In this document: positions 3,945 to 28,799 of the stretch, piece by piece | Numbering within the stretch: position 1 is the stretch's first letter | Layout: each line of letters opens with the position of its first letter | Source of the DNA: Bradyrhizobiaceae bacterium | Lineage (GTDB): Bacteria; Pseudomonadota; Alphaproteobacteria; Rhizobiales; Xanthobacteraceae | NCBI GenBank assembly: GCA_947481635.1 | Contig: CANKHJ010000025.1 | Span: 1-36,112 of the forward strand | Length of the DNA stretch: 36,112 bases | Reading direction: 5' to 3' | Position numbers and translations under genes: made by a program | Notes under the pieces: generated by a model | Databases searched by the model: none | Told to the model about the DNA's origin: nothing | What the model saw: only the letters and a program-made list of their open reading frames with translations

Positions 3945-4799
3945 ATGCCGGAACAATTGCCTTCGAAGTGGCTGGTCTCGACCGAATGGCTGGCGGAGCG
4001 GCTCGGCCGTCCCGAGGTCGTGGTAGTGGATGGATCATATTACCTGCCGGCGCAGAAGCGCGACGCGCCCGCCGAATACGCGGCCGGGCATATTCCCGGC
4101 GCGGTGTTCTTCGATATCGAGAAGGTCGCGGATGATTCCACCGACCTGCCGCACATGCTGCCGGGGCCGGATCAATTCGGCCAGGCGGCCGGCGCGCTCG
4201 GCATCGGCAAAGGCGACACCATCGTGGTCTATGACGGCGCCGGGCTTTTCTCCGCGCCGCGGGTGTGGTGGACGTTCCGGCTGTTCGGCGCGCAGAACGT
4301 GTTCATCCTCGACGGTGGACTAGCGAAGTGGAAGGCGGAAGGCCGGCCGGTCGACGCCAACGCCATCAAGCCCGAGCCGCGCCGCTTCGCTGCCGAAATG
4401 GATACCCGTCTGGTCGCCGGACTCGCCGACGTGCAGATGGCGCTCGCCAATGCCAAAATTCAGATCGTCGATGCGCGCTCGGCGGAACGTTTCCGCGGCG
4501 AAGCGCCCGAGCCACGGCCCGGGCTGCGCGCCGGCCACATGCCCGGCGCGTTCAACGTGCCCAGCACCGCCGTGATGGAGAATGGCCGGCTGCGCTCGCC
4601 GGACGAGTTGCGCAAGGCGTTCATCGCCGGCGGCGTCGATCTCAACAAGCCGGTGATCACGTCCTGCGGTTCGGGCGTGACCGCGGCGACGCTGTGGCTC
4701 GCGCTCGATGCCATCGGCAAGACGCCGGTCGGGCTTTACGATGGATCATGGACCGAATGGGGCGGCCGGCCCGACATGCCGGTCGTGACCGGGAAGTAG
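3945..4799 (+). CDS. sseA: 3-mercaptopyruvate sulfurtransferase (tandem rhodanese)
   Basis: Moves sulfur from 3-mercaptopyruvate to a thiol or cyanide acceptor through an enzyme persulfide. At 284 residues it carries two rhodanese domains. The first (about 10-130) lacks a catalytic cysteine, and the second (about 160-280) has the active-site loop CGSGVTA with C241. That loop is the mercaptopyruvate type rather than the thiosulfate type (CRKGVT). The ATG at 3945 follows AAAGGAC at a good distance. Being between cysteine synthase and a persulfide dioxygenase, it probably handles persulfide arising from cysteine breakdown. Confidence 0.9.
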   Translation: MPEQLPSKWLVSTEWLAERLGRPEVVVVDGSYYLPAQKRDAPAEYAAGHIPGAVFFDIEKVADDSTDLPHMLPGPDQFGQAAGALGIGKGDTIVVYDGAGLFSAPRVWWTFRLFGAQNVFILDGGLAKWKAEGRPVDANAIKPEPRRFAAEMDTRLVAGLADVQMALANAKIQIVDARSAERFRGEAPEPRPGLRAGHMPGAFNVPSTAVMENGRLRSPDELRKAFIAGGVDLNKPVITSCGSGVTAATLWLALDAIGKTPVGLYDGSWTEWGGRPDMPVVTGK

Positions 4800-4858
4800 C
4801 CGGCGCACATCTGCTAGACTGGCGCCGGAATCGTCGCTGGAGTTTTGCAGGACGTCGC

Positions 4859-5896
4859 ATGATCTTTCGCCAGCTCTTCGACAGCGTCTCGGGGACCTAT
4901 ACCTATCTGCTCGCCAGCCGGCGCGGCGGCGAGGCGCTGATCATCGATCCGGTGATCGAGAAGGTCGACCGCTATCTCCAGCTCGTCAAAGAGCTCGACC
5001 TCAAGCTGGTCAAGGCGGTCGACACCCATATCCATGCCGACCACATCACCGGGCTCGGTGCGCTGCGCGACCGCACCCATTGCATCACAGTGATGGGCGA
5101 AATGGCGAAGGTCGACGTGGTCTCGATGCGCGTCGCCGAGGGCGACACGCTGACCATCGAAGGGCTCACGCTCGACGTGCTGTACACGCCGGGCCATACC
5201 GACGATTCCTACAGCTTCAAGACCGCCGACCGCGTGTTCACCGGCGACACGCTGCTGATCCGCGGCACCGGCCGCACCGACTTCCAGAACGGCGATCCGC
5301 GCGCCCAATACGACTCGATCTTCAACAAGCTGCTGCGCCTGCCCGACGAGACGCTGGTGTTTCCCGCGCATGATTATAAAGGCGACACCGTCTCCACCAT
5401 CGGCGAGGAGCGCCGGCATAACCCGCGGCTCCAGGTCGCCGGCATCGACGAATACGTCGCGGTGATGAACAGCCTCAAGCTCTCCAATCCGAAGATGATG
5501 GACGTCGCGGTGCCGGCGAACCTGCATCAGGGCCTGGCGCAGGCCGAGATCGCGCGACGCGGCTGGGCGCTCTCAGCCAGCGAGGCGATGGCGCTGCAAG
5601 GCAAGCCTGGCATCGCGCTGATCGACCTGCGCGAACGCAGCGAGCGCGAGAAGCACGGCGTCATTCCGGGCTCGCTGCATGCCCCCTACCCCGACCTGCA
5701 GGACAATCTCCGCCCCGGCGGGATGCTGCACGAACTCGCCACCGCGACCGGCCGGCGCATCGTATTCTATTGCGCCTTCGGCGAACGCTCGGCGATGGCG
5801 GTGCAGGCGGCACAGGATTCCGGGCTGACGGCGGCGTGCCATATCCAGGGCGGGATCGACGCGTGGAAACGCGCGGATGGGCCGTTGGTACGGTAA
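4859..5896 (+). CDS. Persulfide dioxygenase-rhodanese fusion (ETHE1-like)
   Basis: A 345-residue fusion of an ETHE1-type metallo-beta-lactamase-fold dioxygenase (about 1-240) and a C-terminal rhodanese domain (about 250-345). The dioxygenase oxidises glutathione persulfide to sulfite. Metal motif THIHADH holds H57, H59, D61 and H62. H113 (TPGHTDDSY) and D130 (FTGDTLL) match the mononuclear iron ligands of ETHE1, and GTGRTDFQ is typical of that family. The rhodanese loop is CAFGERS with C305, so both halves look active. This domain order is known from bacterial PRF proteins, where the rhodanese can exchange sulfur between thiosulfate and glutathione persulfide. The ATG at 4859 follows GCAGGA. 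It ends six bases before the convergent monooxygenase gene. Confidence 0.9.
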   Translation: MIFRQLFDSVSGTYTYLLASRRGGEALIIDPVIEKVDRYLQLVKELDLKLVKAVDTHIHADHITGLGALRDRTHCITVMGEMAKVDVVSMRVAEGDTLTIEGLTLDVLYTPGHTDDSYSFKTADRVFTGDTLLIRGTGRTDFQNGDPRAQYDSIFNKLLRLPDETLVFPAHDYKGDTVSTIGEERRHNPRLQVAGIDEYVAVMNSLKLSNPKMMDVAVPANLHQGLAQAEIARRGWALSASEAMALQGKPGIALIDLRERSEREKHGVIPGSLHAPYPDLQDNLRPGGMLHELATATGRRIVFYCAFGERSAMAVQAAQDSGLTAACHIQGGIDAWKRADGPLVR

Positions 5897-20911: not shown

Positions 20912-22534
20912 ATGATCCGTCTCGACAACATCAGCAAGCAGAACGGCCACCAGATCCTGTTCATCGAGGCCTCGGCCGCGCTCCACCGGGGCGAGAAGGT
21001 CGGCCTGGTCGGCCCGAACGGCTCGGGCAAGACCACTTTGTTCAGGATGATCACCGGCGAGGAACAGCCCGACGAGGGCCAGGTGGCGGTCGACCGGGGC
21101 CTGACCATCGGCTATTTCAGCCAGGACGTCGGCGACATGGCGGGCCACAGCGCGGTGACCGAGGTGATGAACGGCGCCGGCCCGGTGAGCATCGTCGCGG
21201 CCGAGCTGAAGGAGCTTGAGGACGCGATGGGCGATCCGGAGCGCGCCGACGAGATGGACGAGATCGTCGAGCGCTATGGCGAGGTCCAGGGCCGCTTCGA
21301 GGAACTGGACGGCTACGCGCTGGAAGGCCGCGCCCGCGAAGTGCTCGCCGGGCTGAGCTTCACCCAGGAAATGATGGACGGCGACGTCGGCGCACTGTCG
21401 GGCGGCTGGAAGATGCGGGTCGCGCTGGCGCGTATCCTGCTGATGCGGCCCGACGCGATGCTGCTCGACGAGCCGAGCAACCATCTCGATCTCGAAAGCC
21501 TGATCTGGCTGGAGCAATTCCTCAAGGGCTATGAGGGCATGCTGCTGATGACCTCGCATGATCGCGAGTTCATGAACCGCATCGTCAACAAGGTGGTTGA
21601 GATCGATGGCGGCACGCTGACCGCTTACACCGGCAATTACGAATTCTACGAGCAGCAGCGCGCGCTGGCCGAGAAGCAGCAGCAGGCGCAATTCGAGCGC
21701 CAGCAGGCGATGCTCGCCAAGGAAATCGCCTTCATTGAACGATTCAAGGCGCGCGCCTCGCATGCCGCGCAGGTGCAGAGCCGCGTCAAGAAATTGGAGA
21801 AGATCGACCGCGTGGTTCCGCCGAAGCGCCGCCAGGCGGTGACGTTCGAATTCCTCCCCGCGCCGCGCTCGGGCGAGGACGTGGTCAACCTGAAGAACGT
21901 ACACAAAGGCTATGGCAGCCGCACCATCTACGAAGGCCTGGACTTCATGGTTCGCCGCAAGGAGCGCTGGTGCGTCATGGGCATCAACGGCGCCGGCAAG
22001 TCCACGCTGCTGAAACTGGTGGCGGGCTCGACCGAGCCGGATGACGGCAGCGTCGCGATCGGCGGCAGCGTCAAGATGGGCTACTTCGCGCAGCACGCGA
22101 TGGAATTGCTCGACGGCGAGCGCACCGTGTTCGAGGAACTCGAATATTCATTCCCCCAGGCCGGCCAAGGCTCGTTGCGCGCGCTGGCCGGCTGCTTCGG
22201 TTTCTCCGGCGACGATGTGGAGAAAAGATGCCGCGTGCTCTCCGGCGGCGAAAAGGCGCGGCTGGTGATGGCGAAGATGCTGTTCGACCCGCCGAACTTC
22301 CTGGTGCTGGACGAGCCGACCAACCATCTGGATATGGCCACCTAGGAAATGTTGATCACGGCGCTGTCACAATACGAGGGCACCATGCTGTTCGTGTCGC
22401 ATGACCGGCATTTCCTGGCGGCGTTATCGAACCGCGTGCTGGAACTGACGCCGGATGGCATCCACCAATATGGCGGTGGCTATACGGAATACGTGGCGCG
22501 CACCGGCCATGAGGCGCCGGGGCTGCATAGCTGA
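20912..22534 (+). pseudogene. ABC-F family ATPase gene interrupted by an in-frame TAG
   Basis: Encodes a soluble twin-ATPase ABC-F protein, a family acting at the ribosome E site. ATPase 1: Walker A GPNGSGKT, signature LSGGWKMR, Walker B DEPSNHLD, switch SHDREF. A coiled linker rich in Q/E/K follows (about 240-310). ATPase 2: GINGAGKS, LSGGEKAR, DEPTNHLDMAT. A TAG at 22343-22345 stops translation after residue 477. The same frame continues for 62 codons (EMLITALSQYEGTMLFVSHD...) and supplies the missing second switch histidine. Without the stop the protein would be 540 residues, a normal length. One substitution such as AAG to TAG explains it. All else looks intact, so the change is recent, an error, or bypassed by readthrough or restart. 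Confidence 0.85.
22346..22534 (+). other. ABC-F C-terminal tail beyond the amber codon, with possible restart
   Basis: An ATG (22349) lies one codon past the TAG, in the same frame, and could allow re-initiation on a 61-residue piece with the switch-histidine motif SHDRHF. Sequence before it reads CCTAGGAA, a weak and very close ribosome site. Whether the fragment is made cannot be told from sequence. Confidence 0.5.
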
Positions 22535-22668
22535 GCGGGCGCCCTGCCCCTCTCCGTAGCGTTGATAACAACCAACGACCACCCGTGGATACCGCCTAAC
22601 CCTTATTAAGTCAGCTACGGAACATTGTGCCGTCTTGGCGCTTGGCACGTTACGCTTCGGTATTCCGC

Positions 22669-22699
22669 CTTCGTCCCCACGAAGGAAGCCGGGGTCCAC
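22669..22699. repeat. Fragment of a related palindromic repeat
   Basis: CTTCGTCCCCACGAAGGAAG followed by CCGGGGTCCA resembles a single degenerate arm of the dispersed elements. It lies in the 202-base gap before the cytochrome gene. Confidence 0.4.
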
Positions 22700-22736
22700 A
22701 AACCGAACAACTCGAAACGTAGCAACGAGGCGAATA

Positions 22737-23078
22737 ATGACGTCGCTGCAATACGTTTCATCGAGGCCCGCCCAGCACCTGTTCTGGACCGGCGTTTTCC
22801 TCTGCATGTGGTTCGCCGTGGCGAACGCTCAGATGTCGCCTAGCGTTCAGCGCGGCACCACCTTTGCGCAGGCCAATTGCGCAACGTGTCATTCGATCGA
22901 CAAGGTGACGCCGAGCCCGCTGTCCTTGGCACCTCCGTTCCGCGTTCTTCATACGCGTTACAAGGTGGACACTCTCGCCGAGGCCTTGGCGGAAGGGATC
23001 ATGGCGGGACATTCCGCCAACATGCCGGAATTCCGGCTCGATCCCGGACAGATCGGCGATTTCCTCGATTTTCTCTAG
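22737..23078 (+). CDS. Small periplasmic c-type cytochrome
   Basis: A 113-residue monohaem cytochrome c. An N-terminal hydrophobic stretch (about 14-31, ending VANAQ) is an export signal. The haem motif is CATCH (C48, C51, H52), and M96 in SANMPEF is the likely sixth ligand, giving a class I-like cytochrome. ATG 22737 is chosen because it follows GAGG at six bases and puts the signal peptide at the start; the open frame extends upstream without meaning. The electron partner is unknown. It precedes the FNR/FixK-type site and could feed a respiratory chain, but no oxidase is nearby. Confidence 0.85.
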   Translation: MTSLQYVSSRPAQHLFWTGVFLCMWFAVANAQMSPSVQRGTTFAQANCATCHSIDKVTPSPLSLAPPFRVLHTRYKVDTLAEALAEGIMAGHSANMPEFRLDPGQIGDFLDFL

Positions 23079-23135
23079 ACCCTCGAATAAAGCGCGCAAC
23101 CCGTCGCCATCGGGCCTGCCGGCCATTGTCGATCA

Positions 23136-23149
23136 TTGATTTCAATCAA
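23136..23149 (+). promoter_or_regulatory. Perfect FNR/FixK-type binding site
   Basis: TTGATTTCAATCAA matches the consensus TTGAT-N4-ATCAA exactly. It lies 62 bases before the dehydrogenase start, so a start point near 23184 would put it at about -41.5, the usual activating position. No other perfect match was noticed in the window. It predicts induction under low oxygen. Confidence 0.7.
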
Positions 23150-23211
23150 GGCCACGCGGCCGCCCGCGCGTCAGGCTGACGTCGACGTTCGGCAATACAA
23201 AAGGATTCCTC

Positions 23212-24288
23212 ATGGCCAAGACAATGAAGGCCGCGATCTTCGTCGAAGCCGGCCGCATCGTGCTGGACGACAAGCCGATTCCGGATGTCGGCCCGCTCGA
23301 CGCGCTGATCAGGATCACCACCACCACGATCTGCGGCACCGACGTCCATATTCTGAAAGGCGAATATCCGGTGGCCAAGGGCCTGACCATCGGACACGAG
23401 CCGGTCGGCGTGATCGAAAAGCTCGGCTCCGCCGTGACCGGCTTTCGTGAAGGACAACGCGTCATCGCCGGGGCGATCACGCCGAGCGGCTCCAGCAATG
23501 CGTGTCTCTGCGGCTATCACTCGCAGGACGGCGCTGGCACCAAGCATGGCTGGAAGCCGATGGGCGGATGGAAATTCGGCAACACCATTGATGGCTGCCA
23601 GGCCGAATTCGTCTGCGTCCCGGACGCGATGGTGAACCTGTGTCCGGTCCCGGATGGCCTGACCGACGAGCAGGTACTGATGTGTCCGGACATCATGTCC
23701 ACCGGGTTCAGCGGCGCCGAGAGCGGCGACATCCGGATCGGCGATATCGTGGCGGTGTTTGCGCAAGGTCCGATCGGCCTTTGCGCCACCGCCGGTGCGA
23801 AGCTGAAAGGCGCGACCACCATCATCGTGGTCGATGCGGTCGCTGAGCGGCTGGCGATGGCGCGCAAGCTCGGCGCGGACTTCACCGTGGATTTCAACAA
23901 GGTGAATCCGGTCGAAGAGATCATGCGGCTCACCGATGGCCGCGGCGTCGATGTCGCGATCGAGGCATTGGGGACACCTGGAACATTCGAGGCGGCGTTG
24001 CGCGTGCTGCGGCCCGGCGGCACACTGTCGAGCCTCGGCGTCTATTCCTCCGATCTGATGATCCCGCTAGGTGCGTTCGCCGCGGGGCTCGGCGACCACA
24101 AGATCATCACCACGCTGTGCCCCGGCGGCAAGGAGCGGATGCGGCGGCTGATGGACGTGATCGCATCGGGTCGGGTTGACCTGACGCCGCTGGTCACCCA
24201 CCGTTACAAGCTCGACGATATCGAGAAGGCCTATGAGCTGTTTTCCCATCAACGCGATGGCGTCATGAAGATCGCGATCACGCCTTAA
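23212..24288 (+). CDS. Zinc-dependent secondary alcohol dehydrogenase-like enzyme, probably NAD-linked
   Basis: A 358-residue medium-chain dehydrogenase resembling clostridial secondary alcohol dehydrogenase. Catalytic zinc ligands are C41 (ICGTD), H62 and E63 (GHEPVG), and D160 (CPDIMSTGF), the Cys-His-Glu-Asp set of that branch. The structural zinc loop is absent. The nucleotide loop AQGPIG is followed by VVDAV with D208, an acidic residue favouring NAD over NADP; the NADP-dependent clostridial enzyme has Gly-Ser-Arg there. ATG 23212 follows AAAAGGA. It is the first gene of a two-gene operon behind the FNR/FixK-type site, so reduction of a ketone or aldehyde to reoxidise NADH at low oxygen is plausible. 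Confidence 0.88.
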   Translation: MAKTMKAAIFVEAGRIVLDDKPIPDVGPLDALIRITTTTICGTDVHILKGEYPVAKGLTIGHEPVGVIEKLGSAVTGFREGQRVIAGAITPSGSSNACLCGYHSQDGAGTKHGWKPMGGWKFGNTIDGCQAEFVCVPDAMVNLCPVPDGLTDEQVLMCPDIMSTGFSGAESGDIRIGDIVAVFAQGPIGLCATAGAKLKGATTIIVVDAVAERLAMARKLGADFTVDFNKVNPVEEIMRLTDGRGVDVAIEALGTPGTFEAALRVLRPGGTLSSLGVYSSDLMIPLGAFAAGLGDHKIITTLCPGGKERMRRLMDVIASGRVDLTPLVTHRYKLDDIEKAYELFSHQRDGVMKIAITP

Positions 24289-24293
24289 CGCCG

Positions 24294-27017
24294 ATGAGCA
24301 CCTATCGTCTCGACCGATTGCTGGCTCCGCGCTCCGTCGCCCTGGTCGGGGCCGGCCTGCGCGAGAATTCGGTCGGCCGCAAAATTCTTCAGAATTTGCG
24401 CGAAGCCGGATTCGAGGGCTCGATCCAACTGGTGAATCCGAACCACCCGGAGATCGAGGGCGTTCGCGCGGTGAAGAGCATCGCCGAATTGTCGCCGGTG
24501 CCGGACCTGCTGATTATCGCGGTGCCGCCGTCTGCCATGCTGGATGTCGTGTCAACCGCCGCCGCGCGCGGCTGCCCGGCCGCGATCGTGATCACAGCCG
24601 GATTGGGCCAGGGCGAAGGCTCGGTGTCCAAAGCCATCGAACGGGCGGCGCGTGCGCATGGGATGCGGCTGCTCGGTCCCAATTGCCTGGGGCTGCAGGC
24701 GCCGGCCGTCAAACTCAATGCCAGTTTTGCCGCGCATATGAGCCAGCCGGGCGATCTTGCGCTGATCTCCCAGTCGGGCGCGATTGCCGCGGGGCTGATC
24801 GAATGGGCCGCGAGCCGATCGCTGGGATTCTCCGCGGTGGTGTCGCTCGGCGACAAGGTCGACGTCGACTTCGCCGACCTGCTCGACCATTTCGCGCTCG
24901 ACCGCGGCACGCGCGCCATCCTGCTCTATGTCGAAGGCATCAACGACGCGCGCAAATTCATGTCGGCGGCGCGTGCACCCGCGCGCATCAAGCCGGTCGT
25001 GGTGATCAAATCCGGGCGTCACAAGCAAGGCGCGCTGGCGGCCCAGACTCATACCGGGGCGATGGCCGGGTCCGACGCGGTCTATGACGCGGCGTTCCGG
25101 CGCGCCGGGCTGCTGCGGGTGTTCGACCTCGACGAACTCTTCGATGCGGTCGAGACGCTGGGGCGGCTGCAGCCGTTTTCAGGCAAGCGGCTCGCGATCC
25201 TGACCAATGGCGGCGGCATCGGCGTGCTGGCGGTCGATCGCCTGGTCGATCTCGGCGGGACACTGGCGACGCTGTCGCACGGCACGATGCAGGACCTCGA
25301 CCGCGTGCTGCCGCCGATCTGGTCGAAGGCCAACCCGGTCGACATCGCCGGCGATGCCGATCCTGCGCGCTATGCCGCAGCGCTCACCGCGCTGCTGGCC
25401 GATCCCGACAATGACGCGGTGCTGGTGATGAACGTGCCGACCGCGCTGGCCTCCGCCGATGACGCCGCGAAGGCGGTCGTCGCGGTGGTGCAAGAGCACA
25501 TCAAGCGCAGCGTTCCGCCGAAGCCGGTCTTCGGCGTCTGGGTGGGTGACACCGGCATGGCGTCGAGCCAGCTCATGGCCGCCGGCATTCCGCATTATCA
25601 ATCGGAGGCGGATGCGATCCGCGGCTTCATGCATCTGGTGCATTACCGGGAGGGACTCGATGCCCTGATGGAGGCGCCGCCGAGCCTGCCGCAGGATTTC
25701 ACCGCCGATGTTGCGGCGGCGCGCGCGATCGTGAAGCGCGTGCTCGCCGAGGGTCGCCTGTGGCTCGATCCGGTCGAGATCACGCAAGTCCTGACCGCCT
25801 ATGCGATCCCGATCGCTCCCGCGATGCTGGCGCGCAACCCCGATGAGGCAGCCGCAGCGGCCAAGCCCTTCTTCGCACAGGGCATGACCGTCGCGGTGAA
25901 AATCCTCTCGCCCGACATCGTGCATAAATCCGACATCGGCGGCGTGCGGCTGAACTTGGCCGACACGGCAGGCGTCCGCGAGGCGGCCGCTGGCATTCTC
26001 GCCAGGGCAAAAGCCGCCAAGCCGGACGCGCGCATCACCGGCGTGACGATTCATCCGATGATCCTGCGTCCCGGAGCGCGTGAACTGATTGCCGGCATCG
26101 CCGACGATGCGACCTTCGGCCCGGTCGTCGTGTTCGGCGCGGGCGGCACTGCCGTCGAGGTGATCGACGACAAGGCGCTGGCGCTCCCGCCGCTCGATCT
26201 GACGCTCGCCCGCGACCTGATCTCCCGCACCCGGATCGCGCGCATCCTCAAACCCTATCGGGACGTGCCGGCCGTAGACGACCACGCCTTGGCGCTACTG
26301 CTGGTGAAGCTCGCGCAGCTCGCGGCGGACCTGCCTGAGATCCGCGAGCTCGATCTCAATCCGCTGCTGGCCGACCATGACGGCGTCATCGCGCTCGATG
26401 CCCGGATTGCCGTCGCACCGGTTGAAATCACGCGGCGCTCCCCCTCGGGCCATCCGCGTTTCGCGGTCCGGCCCTATCCGACGGAGTGGGAACGCCACGT
26501 GGCAACGAGGGACGGCAAGGAGATCCTGATCCGTCCGATCCGGCCGGAAGACGAAGCCTTGTATCCGTCATTCCTCGCGGCGGTGACGGCGCATGATCTG
26601 CGACTGCGCTTCTTCGCCCATATCAAGGAATTCGACCACGCCGCGATCGCCCGCTTCACTCAGATCGACTATGCCCGCGCCATGGCTTTCGTCGCCGTCG
26701 ACCCACGCTCCGGCGCGGTGCTCGGCGTAGTGCGCATCCACGCCAATTCGGATTACGACACCGCGGAATATGCCGTGCTGGTGCGCTCGGACCTGAAGGG
26801 CAAAGGGCTCGGCTGGATTCTGATGCAGACGATGCTCGACTACGCGGCCAGCGAAGGGTTGCGCAGCGTCGAGGGACAGGTTCTCCACGAGAATACCGGC
26901 ATGCTTTCGATGTGTCGGGACCTCGGGTTCGCGATCACGCCCGATCCGCAGGATGCGGGGACATATCTGGTGACACGGGCCATCGGAAGCGCTGACGCGG
27001 CACCTCGCGAGAGCTAG
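24294..27017 (+). CDS. ADP-forming acyl-CoA synthetase fused to a GNAT acetyltransferase (Pat/PatZ-like)
   Basis: 907 residues. A CoA-binding domain (about 5-130), a succinyl-CoA-ligase-like domain (about 150-300), an ATP-grasp domain (about 480-700; VAVKILSPDIVHKSDIGGV) and a C-terminal GNAT domain (about 740-895; acetyl-CoA loop RSDLKGKGLG). PatZ/Pat proteins with this layout acetylate lysines and silence acetyl-CoA synthetase. Unlike E. coli PatZ, the phospho-histidine of active ADP-forming synthetases is kept as H253 in THTGAMAG, so the synthetase half may still make ATP from acyl-CoA. It starts five bases after the dehydrogenase gene and must share its promoter. It ends three bases from the convergent rhodanese gene. 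Confidence 0.88.
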   Translation: MSTYRLDRLLAPRSVALVGAGLRENSVGRKILQNLREAGFEGSIQLVNPNHPEIEGVRAVKSIAELSPVPDLLIIAVPPSAMLDVVSTAAARGCPAAIVITAGLGQGEGSVSKAIERAARAHGMRLLGPNCLGLQAPAVKLNASFAAHMSQPGDLALISQSGAIAAGLIEWAASRSLGFSAVVSLGDKVDVDFADLLDHFALDRGTRAILLYVEGINDARKFMSAARAPARIKPVVVIKSGRHKQGALAAQTHTGAMAGSDAVYDAAFRRAGLLRVFDLDELFDAVETLGRLQPFSGKRLAILTNGGGIGVLAVDRLVDLGGTLATLSHGTMQDLDRVLPPIWSKANPVDIAGDADPARYAAALTALLADPDNDAVLVMNVPTALASADDAAKAVVAVVQEHIKRSVPPKPVFGVWVGDTGMASSQLMAAGIPHYQSEADAIRGFMHLVHYREGLDALMEAPPSLPQDFTADVAAARAIVKRVLAEGRLWLDPVEITQVLTAYAIPIAPAMLARNPDEAAAAAKPFFAQGMTVAVKILSPDIVHKSDIGGVRLNLADTAGVREAAAGILARAKAAKPDARITGVTIHPMILRPGARELIAGIADDATFGPVVVFGAGGTAVEVIDDKALALPPLDLTLARDLISRTRIARILKPYRDVPAVDDHALALLLVKLAQLAADLPEIRELDLNPLLADHDGVIALDARIAVAPVEITRRSPSGHPRFAVRPYPTEWERHVATRDGKEILIRPIRPEDEALYPSFLAAVTAHDLRLRFFAHIKEFDHAAIARFTQIDYARAMAFVAVDPRSGAVLGVVRIHANSDYDTAEYAVLVRSDLKGKGLGWILMQTMLDYAASEGLRSVEGQVLHENTGMLSMCRDLGFAITPDPQDAGTYLVTRAIGSADAAPRES

Positions 27018-27020
27018 ATT

Positions 27021-27845
27021 TCACGACGGCTTCCGGGGCGACGCCGAGTGCCAGGTATGGGTTTCCTCGCTCGCGTCTCGGCACCAGCGATAGAACGCGT
27101 CATAGAGTTCGAGACCGGCTCGGAGCTGCTCCAGATCGTTGCTGTAGATGCGCGACAGGCCGAGCGACGCCGCCAGCAATCCTGCCGCCTCCGGCGCGAG
27201 GTCAGGCCGCGCGGTATCCGCACCACGGATGATCGTCGCGAGGCGCTTCAGCGGCGCGGTTGCCAAGCCGAACTCATCGAGCATCGTGTCGAACGTGCAG
27301 CCTTCCCCGCGGTGGCTCCAATGCACGCCTTCAATGTCGAACGGCGTCGCGCCGAAACGGTCCGCGACCGACTCCACCTCGGACGGTGCGACGAACAGGA
27401 ACACAGCGTCAGGATCGATGAAGCGCCGGATCAGCCATGGGCACGCGATCCGGTCGACCTTGGGCCGCTCGCGCGTGACCCAGACGGTCCGCCCCTCGCT
27501 ATCGGCCGGCGGCAGCTTCGACTGGACGACCAACGGCCGCGGCTTTTGCTTCCAGGCCTGAAATCCCCCTTCAAGGATTTCCGCATCGACCCCCATATGA
27601 CGCAACCACGCCGCGACGCCCTGACTGAGTTTGAGGCCGCCCTGGCAGATGACGATGGCTCCGCCATCGCGCAAGCGATGGCGCCAGCCGGAAACATCCG
27701 CATGCGAGCGCCGGATCGCGCCCGGAATCAGCCGCGGATCAGCCGCGAAATCCTCTTCGGTGCGCACATCGATCAATGCCGGGCATTTCGCGGTGCCGAT
27801 GAGACGTTCGAGCTTGTCGGCCGAAATCGCGTTAATCGATGGCAT
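27021..27845 (-). CDS. Rhodanese domain fused to a ChrB-type domain
   Basis: 274 residues. An N-terminal rhodanese domain (about 1-105) carries the catalytic loop CQGGLKLS with C67. The C-terminal ~150 residues match the ChrB/chromate-resistance domain: VDRIACPWLIRRFIDP, then FDIEGVHWSHRGEGCTFD. ChrB proteins are tied to chromate resistance, but no chrA transporter is present here. ATG 27845 follows GGGGAACG and sits 14 bases inside the end of the preceding small ORF. The operon begins with a TauE/SafE exporter, so sulfur oxyanion or persulfide handling fits better than chromate alone. Confidence 0.85.
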   Translation of the reverse strand: MPSINAISADKLERLIGTAKCPALIDVRTEEDFAADPRLIPGAIRRSHADVSGWRHRLRDGGAIVICQGGLKLSQGVAAWLRHMGVDAEILEGGFQAWKQKPRPLVVQSKLPPADSEGRTVWVTRERPKVDRIACPWLIRRFIDPDAVFLFVAPSEVESVADRFGATPFDIEGVHWSHRGEGCTFDTMLDEFGLATAPLKRLATIIRGADTARPDLAPEAAGLLAASLGLSRIYSNDLEQLRAGLELYDAFYRWCRDASEETHTWHSASPRKPS

Positions 27846-28050
27846 GAAGGCGTTCCCCGTCTTTTGTCTTGCGCAGCCACCCCGCAACGCAGGCGACCAT
27901 TTTGGAAAGGTACGACGCCCGCGGCGTGTCCGCGCCATCCATCGCCGCTTCGGTTGCTCCGCGATCGGCAAAGGCAGGCGGGATCGGTCGATACGGCCCT
28001 CCGGAACAATGGGATTGAAGCGCTGTGATCATATGGTTGCGCGTCGTCAT
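27832..28050 (-). CDS. Small 72-residue protein coupled to the TauE/SafE gene, unrecognised
   Basis: The ATG at 28050 overlaps the exporter stop as ATGA, and the TAA at 27834-27832 lies inside the next gene. Both junctions are typical of translated, coupled genes. The N-terminal half is Pro/Ala-rich with no predicted domain. The C-terminal half (YLSKMVACVAGWLRKTKDGE, then RLHAID) is short, amphipathic and basic. That end is faintly like the beginning of DUF1127-type small proteins, but the family's usual ending is missing. Coding status is inferred from the overlaps only. Confidence 0.45.
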   Translation of the reverse strand: MTTRNHMITALQSHCSGGPYRPIPPAFADRGATEAAMDGADTPRASYLSKMVACVAGWLRKTKDGERLHAID

Positions 28051-28799
28051 CGGATGATCCCCGTCGGCACGACCAGCATCACACCGGACACCAGCAACAA
28101 CAACAGGATCGCCTTGCGGAATGCGGCATCGTCGAGCCGTCCGTAGAGTTTGAAACCAAACCACAATCCAGCCAACATCACCGGCAGCGCCAGCAGGTAG
28201 AGCTTGGCAACCTCGATGGTGACCGCGCCGGTCGTGCTCAACGACGCCACGGTGAACACCGCGCCGATAAAGGTGACCGGTTGGAATACCGCGCGCTGGA
28301 CATCCTTCGGCCAGCCCCGGAGCTGGCACCAGATGGTGATGATGATCCCGCCGAGCCCAGTCAGCCCGCCGAGCATCCCATTGAAGAAGCCAATTCCGGT
28401 GTCAGCCGCGACGCCGGCCTGAACCGGTCTGAGATCCGGCCGTACCAGACTATAGGCGCTGTAAGCCACCAGCAGCACACCGACGCCGGTGCGAAGCACC
28501 GCCGGATTGATGGCGTTGAAAGTGGTGAGGATCGCCGCCCCCGCCGGCACACCGATCACCGCGCCGGCAATGAACGGCGCGAGCCGCCGCCAACTCAGCG
28601 CGTGCCGCAATTTCCAGACGCTGTAGCCCTGGGTGACGGCCGAGCAGCCGACAATCAGCGTCGCGGTCTCGAGCGGCGTGATGATGTGCAGCCAGACGCC
28701 CGCGACGACGAGGCCCATGGCGAAACCGACCAGGCCGGTTGCCATGCCGCCGAGAAACGAAGCCAGAAGAAACAATATCAGAGGTGTGGTGGCCAACAT
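28047..28799 (-). CDS. TauE/SafE-family sulfite/sulfur-compound exporter
   Basis: A 250-residue inner-membrane protein with about eight helices in two internal repeats, each opening with a glycine-rich turn: GGMATGLVGFAMG (about 17-29) and NGMLGGLTGLGG (about 140-151). This is the hallmark of TauE/SafE transporters, which move sulfite, sulfoacetate or related anions. ATG 28799 follows AAGGA at eight bases. It heads an overlapping operon with the small ORF and the rhodanese-ChrB protein, suggesting it removes the oxidised sulfur product. Confidence 0.85.
   Translation of the reverse strand: MLATTPLILFLLASFLGGMATGLVGFAMGLVVAGVWLHIITPLETATLIVGCSAVTQGYSVWKLRHALSWRRLAPFIAGAVIGVPAGAAILTTFNAINPAVLRTGVGVLLVAYSAYSLVRPDLRPVQAGVAADTGIGFFNGMLGGLTGLGGIIITIWCQLRGWPKDVQRAVFQPVTFIGAVFTVASLSTTGAVTIEVAKLYLLALPVMLAGLWFGFKLYGRLDDAAFRKAILLLLLVSGVMLVVPTGIIR

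Follow-up and report, generated by a model that had tools for sequence, protein, structure and literature searches.

A joined ADH and synthetase/GNAT gene pair behind a perfect palindrome

The locus described herein lies in a 36,112-nucleotide stretch of contig CANKHJ010000025.1 from a Bradyrhizobiaceae bacterium (the window, by which we mean this stretch at its full length), and it comprises a palindrome of the FNR/FixK type, a gene encoding a zinc-dependent alcohol dehydrogenase (ADH) and a gene encoding an ADP-forming acyl-CoA synthetase fused to a GNAT domain (Table 1). The palindrome, TTGATTTCAATCAA, is separated by 62 bases (23150-23211) from the ATG of the ADH at 23212, and the ADH, which ends at 24288, is followed after a gap of five bases by the ATG of the fusion at 24294; in its coordinates, in the distance of the site and in the five-base gap, the arrangement is exactly that given in the initial annotation. 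We infer that the two genes are co-transcribed. The unit is ordinary in kind; what is unusual is that its genes are joined and that they are preceded by a perfect site in a genome without a recognizable protein to read it.

Table 1. Features of the locus, with positions in the window.
Feature	Position	Strand	Size	Basis or remark
FNR/FixK-type palindrome TTGATTTCAATCAA, perfect TTGAT-N4-ATCAA	23136-23149			Pattern search
Zinc-dependent medium-chain ADH	23212-24288	+	358 amino acids	Pfam (PF08240/PF00107)
ADP-forming acyl-CoA synthetase/GNAT fusion	24294-27017	+	907 amino acids	Pfam, alignments
Imperfect site TTGATAACAACCAA, 1 mismatch	22562-22575	+		161 bases 5' of the cytochrome c start codon
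Monohaem cytochrome c, NCATCHS haem motif	22737-23078	+	113 amino acids	Pfam on the longer frame 22635-23078

The palindrome and its chance expectation

The genome comprises 4,885,688 bases in 338 contigs and is rated 100% complete. Exact TTGAT-N4-ATCAA occurs in it six times versus 3.5 expected from half-site frequencies (taken from a 349,725-base sample made up of the window and 18 further stretches), and the probability of six or more is ∼0.14. Scaled to the window, this expectation amounts to ∼0.026 perfect sites per 36 kb, and a perfect site directly before the ADH by chance alone is unlikely. When one mismatch is allowed, the window holds two sites versus a mean of 0.53 in shuffled sequence, with at least two in 10 of 100 shuffles, and the imperfect one of the two, TTGATAACAACCAA, may be a chance match. 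The looser TTGA-N6-TCAA was seen once in the 349,725-base sample versus 3.0 expected, and neither of these two genome comparisons gives statistical evidence that an FNR/FixK regulon is at work genome-wide; the degenerate TTG-N8-CAA (701 versus 603 in the control) is uninformative. A control with the reversed pattern, which gave zero in 35 of 41 genomes, was set aside since TAG/CTA, rare in such genomes, occur in the reversed strings, and half-site frequencies and permuted palindromes were used instead. A promoter and terminator scan of positions 22300-28100 returned none of either.

Of the other five perfect sites, one is near a gene for phosphoenolpyruvate (PEP) carboxykinase, one has a PstS-like gene on one side and a histidine kinase gene on the other, one is near another solute-binding protein gene and two are on contig C79. 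The two on C79 lie 1.6 kb apart, at 814-827 and 2395-2408, and the frames that adjoin them have no Pfam match.

The two enzymes

Residues C41, H62 and D160 of the ADH are its predicted catalytic zinc ligands (a Cys-His-Asp set, by alignment), and we take the conserved Cys, His and Asp aligned with them to be the zinc ligands of isopropanol dehydrogenases. The closest solved structures, the NADP-dependent isopropanol dehydrogenases PDB 7f3p and 1bxz, are distant relatives with which the protein shares the fold and, by alignment, this zinc set. Unlike them, it has Asp208, after beta-2, in place of the Gly of their Gly-Ser-Arg, positions to which we presume cofactor roles, and this exchange suggests that the cofactor is NAD(H) rather than NADP. 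The initial annotation had spoken of a secondary-alcohol dehydrogenase able to reoxidize NADH, of which a zinc ADH with NAD-type features remains, while the secondary-alcohol name comes from the distant best PDB match only. A literature search for a characterized fermentative ADH of Cupriavidus returned nothing usable.

In the second protein, Pfam recognizes CoA_binding_2, Succ_CoA_lig, Ligase_CoA_2 and ATP-grasp_5 domains and a C-terminal GNAT, which agrees with its earlier description as a synthetase/GNAT fusion, and both catalytic histidines of the synthetase are kept, as in an alignment the two His motifs that mark ADP-forming synthetases fall on H253 (THTGAMAG) and H544 (IVHKSD). The synthetase domains and the motifs are shared with the ADP-forming acyl-CoA synthetases PDB 8wzu (both motifs), 4xyl and 2csu (the alpha part, with the first motif), all of which differ from the present protein in having no additional C-terminal GNAT. 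With the type I GNAT of PDB 9it0/9isq, which we take to be the enterobacterial Pat, the protein shares domain order, full-length similarity and a Glu in the GNAT region (E825, aligned to position 809 in the 9it0 chain), but that chain is without the first catalytic His, which is retained here. Glu 809 is the residue number discussed for Pat in the available portion of a review (PMC8556138), in which type I GNATs are also said to have an inactive synthetase domain. Judged by its catalytic residues, the group of proteins aligned here does not fit this description of a dead synthetase: a His is present at the first position in 38 and at the second in 38 of 42 proteins (our own included), and both are present in 37. 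Since both are retained in our protein, ATP formation by its synthetase half is chemically possible. Literature searches returned no paper on an active synthetase domain in such a fusion, which is no proof of absence. In some relatives one (L012, L049) or both (L050, L051, L092) of the histidines are missing, and dead and live forms of the fusion apparently coexist.

Sites upstream of orthologs

The synthetase/GNAT fusion has a near full-length match in 26 of 41 genomes, our own included, with one in-frame stop each in the matches of G015, G036 and G038. At E < 1e-80 the ADH was found in nine of the 41, again counting our own and with one partial match, and a family-wide scan detected it in 66 of 391 genomes (E < 1e-130). 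The 36 ADH orthologs considered here consist of 33 of 34 genome loci (the partial one was dropped) and three plasmid records; they are the best-scoring matches and not a random draw, and together with our genome they represent 32 of the 66 genomes from the family scan as well as relatives outside the family. The 41 synthetase orthologs comprise those of 25 relatives, a second copy in G009, 14 named loci and S. meliloti.

Within 250 bases upstream, TTGA-N6-TCAA is present in 12 of the 36 ADH orthologs and in eight of the 41 synthetase orthologs, versus none in either set for each of 11 permuted half-site palindromes. The 12 ADH orthologs are not independent, as six belong to genus g57 and two to genus g42, with single cases in G028, G006, a Bosea plasmid and a Chelatococcus plasmid; three of the eight synthetase orthologs are from Chelatococcus. 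On the Bosea plasmid the ADH stands among universal stress proteins and the site is at -174.

Search for a regulator able to read the site

Profile searches of our genome gave 12 matches to PF13545, two to PF00325 and two to a Rhodopseudomonas FixK-like query, and six Crp/Fnr-family proteins are encoded in it, on contigs C84, C40, C93, C67, C12 and C268. In FNR, it is a Glu and a Ser of the helix that read TTGAT, and an ETVSR or ETISR helix is found at the best-matching locus of 29 of the 30 relatives inspected, G010 being the exception. The two nearest proteins of our genome have LTPVHVNR (contig C84; 76 bits, 30% identity) and LSVVHTNR (contig C40; 54 bits). Among the ten relatives beyond these 30, G014, G027, G031 and G033 are without a match at 1e-12 and G002, G011, G016 and G038 score no higher than our genome, so that the lack of an ETVSR regulator is not unique to it.

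In the Crp/Fnr protein of C84 (G000:C84:5051-5725) PVHVNR replaces ETVSR, and its cysteines are arranged as C-x2-C-x7-C plus a later Cys, a spacing that we assume to be that of iron-sulphur sensors of the FNR type. Alignments with solved FNR chains run from the cysteine region of this protein onward and, given both likenesses, this genome may encode an oxygen sensor with another kind of reading head. The cydA gene of a bd oxidase is present, and the Crp/Fnr-family gene of C40, with its HTNR helix, lies ∼2 kb upstream of it (G000:C40:22321-25895); the C40 protein is a possible low-oxygen regulator here. Two frames encoding Crp/Fnr helices of the HVNR type lie close to the ADH ortholog with the highest identity (90.5%; L085, G024:C1:613000-632000).

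Gene order elsewhere and likeness to known systems

Among the loci scanned, the ADH is directly joined to the synthetase at our own locus only. A synthetase N-terminus lies near the ADH in one of the 37 other ADH loci (flanks of 1.5 kb in 34 and of 12-16 kb in three), namely in S. meliloti, 6.5 kb off and on the opposite strand. Conversely, the relatives' synthetase loci (25 genomes and 14 named loci, with flanks of 1.5 kb and up to 10 kb) have an ADH nearby only in G028, where it is 1.3 kb downstream and has its own site at -79. Part of the relatives' neighbourhoods comes from a simple longest-frame gene caller and was used only where another analysis agreed. With the joined unit seen only here, a common function of the ADH and the synthetase is presumed.

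TTGAT-N4-ATCAA is the canonical FixK target, and the predicted alphaproteobacterial FixK regulon includes a zinc ADH, a class I cytochrome c, a CBS protein, Hsp20 and phosphoketolase, according to the sections of PMC2908626 that were available. The present locus has the zinc ADH, the class I cytochrome c and the canonical site in common with this stimulon; it differs in that neither an ETVSR-helix FixK/FNR nor FixO was found in the genome, and the examined part of Table 1 of the same paper (PMC2908626) makes no mention of the synthetase/GNAT. In the available excerpt of a comparison under microoxia in Bradyrhizobium (PMC6515984), GNAT proteins and an NAD(P)-dependent ADH are included, their orthology to the present genes not being established.

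On pSymA of S. meliloti (L140; the record is unannotated there and its genes were called in the present analysis), the ADH follows a Usp-family gene, the synthetase/GNAT, which has a site at -69, lies at a distance of ∼6.5 kb, and an ETVSR regulator is encoded in the same 33 kb. The likeness is that Usp, ADH and synthetase/GNAT occur in one neighbourhood, whereas the ADH and the synthetase there are separate units on opposite strands. We take this pSymA ADH to be SMa1156. In the part of PMC2848018 available to us, SMa1156 is named an alcohol dehydrogenase and a fermentative role is predicted for it. At a Rhodopseudomonas palustris locus (L042), a CBS protein, a synthetase/GNAT, a cytochrome c, an ETVSR regulator and sites are found within ∼8 kb.

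Neighbouring genes

The cytochrome c gene precedes the palindrome, and its product has a probable secretion signal, as judged by eye. Its orthologs gave 13 matches, two pairs of which are the same place, and eight of the resulting 11 distinct loci have a site within 300 bases upstream, in a sample that is biased towards low-oxygen neighbourhoods since the loci had been fetched for holding a synthetase or FixK-like gene. By these matches, the cytochrome c is the third neighbour, after the ADH and the synthetase, whose orthologs carry FNR-type sites. Elsewhere in the window, a Rhodanese-ChrB protein adjoins a TauE/SafE exporter (27021-27971 and 28047-28799, minus strand), and an open frame on the plus strand (4265-5896) fuses metallo-beta-lactamase and rhodanese domains.

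A piece of a low-oxygen stimulon without its usual reader

We propose, with a confidence only a little better than even, that the locus is a compacted two-gene piece of the alphaproteobacterial FNR/FixK low-oxygen stimulon, standing beside a cytochrome c, and that its site either lacks a reader or is read by a sensor that is FNR-like but non-canonical. The proposal builds on the observed gene order, site, domains and catalytic residues and on the recurrence of sites upstream of orthologs. An ordinary FNR/FixK is probably not what reads the site in this genome; the site would either have been inherited without its reader or be read by a non-canonical FNR-like protein, for which the C84 protein, with its four FNR-like cysteines and PVHVNR helix, is the candidate. 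As to substrates, direction, acetylation target and low-oxygen induction in this organism, we infer that when respiration is limited the ADH would reduce an aldehyde or ketone and regenerate NAD+, that the synthetase half would convert an acyl-CoA (probably acetyl-CoA), ADP and phosphate to ATP and the released acid, and that the GNAT half would acetylate proteins, possibly including the AMP-forming acetyl-CoA synthetase, such that released acetate would not be re-activated at the cost of ATP. It would be a long shot to see in the unit an acetyl-CoA valve, in which the synthetase makes ATP from acetyl-CoA, the GNAT silences the AMP-forming acetyl-CoA synthetase to avoid a futile cycle, and the four-cysteine PVHVNR relative of FNR took over the TTGAT site following the loss of FNR/FixK.

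Several observations weigh against the proposal. TTGA-N6-TCAA is absent within 250 nt of 24 of the 36 ADH and 33 of the 41 synthetase orthologs, and the ADH orthologs without it include that of S. meliloti and the three closest ones (L053, L054 and L114, with 90.5, 88.1 and 87.6% identity), which have no site within 400 bases. The conservation of the site, which the initial annotation had put forward as a check, is seen in 12 of the 36 ADH orthologs with all controls at zero but not in these three closest ones. The genome-wide excess of perfect sites is not significant. In a sequence search upstream of the ADH, no hexamer resembling a -10 element was found at the class II distance (site near -41.5); those that are present would put the site between about -60 and -70 with almost no leader left, and a position of the site near -41 of a transcript start is not supported by them. 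Neither an ETVSR-type helix (in a six-frame scan of all PF13545, PF00325 and FixK-like loci) nor FixO, the one cbb3 subunit sought, was found in our genome, and the control by an ordinary FNR/FixK that had been supposed is not supported. The joined unit, which was to be looked for in related genomes, was not seen in the relatives' loci that were fetched and scanned. What stands of the supposed link to FNR/FixK is that both gene families recurrently carry such sites elsewhere, while the reader, the -10 distance and the genome-wide excess are unsupported here.

An ordinary low-oxygen operon, in which a canonical FNR/FixK binds near -41 and activates, would account for the perfect canonical site and for the sites that orthologs of the ADH, the fusion and the cytochrome c can carry, and the presence of cydA makes some low-oxygen physiology plausible; however, we consider it quite improbable, as the ETVSR-helix regulator was not found in a genome rated complete, and the missing FixO, the non-significant site excess and the lack of a fitting -10-like hexamer point the same way. 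The lack of an identified reader, the modest number of perfect sites and the siteless closest ADH orthologs are what would be expected if the site were a chance match or decaying relic and the genes were constitutive or otherwise controlled, serving aerobic alcohol and carboxylic acid metabolism. The genes near the other perfect sites (PEP carboxykinase, PstS-like, solute-binding and unknown), which include no classical FNR set, also suit this explanation, but we regard it as unlikely, since pure chance is hard to reconcile with a perfect match right before genes whose orthologs have sites in several lineages, and a relic would be expected to have decayed. Compatible with any of these views is the tentative possibility that the fusion is a Pat-type lysine acetyltransferase only, with a synthetase part that serves as a non-catalytic acyl-CoA sensor. 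Its architecture is the same as that of the protein acetyltransferase 9it0/9isq, which is also its best full-length match, and such domains are called inactive in type I GNATs in the portion of the review available (PMC8556138), yet our protein and most of its aligned relatives retain H253 and H544, the first of which is lost from the 9it0 chain.

If the preferred reading, a compacted piece of the FixK stimulon, is true, a bacterium without a recognizable FNR/FixK would have kept and compacted part of that stimulon, and the locus would be a natural case of a regulon outliving its regulator. For the Pat-like proteins more broadly, the retention of both synthetase histidines in most of those aligned suggests that the "dead domain" statement may hold for part of the family only, and it makes a link of substrate-level ATP formation with protein acetylation directly testable.

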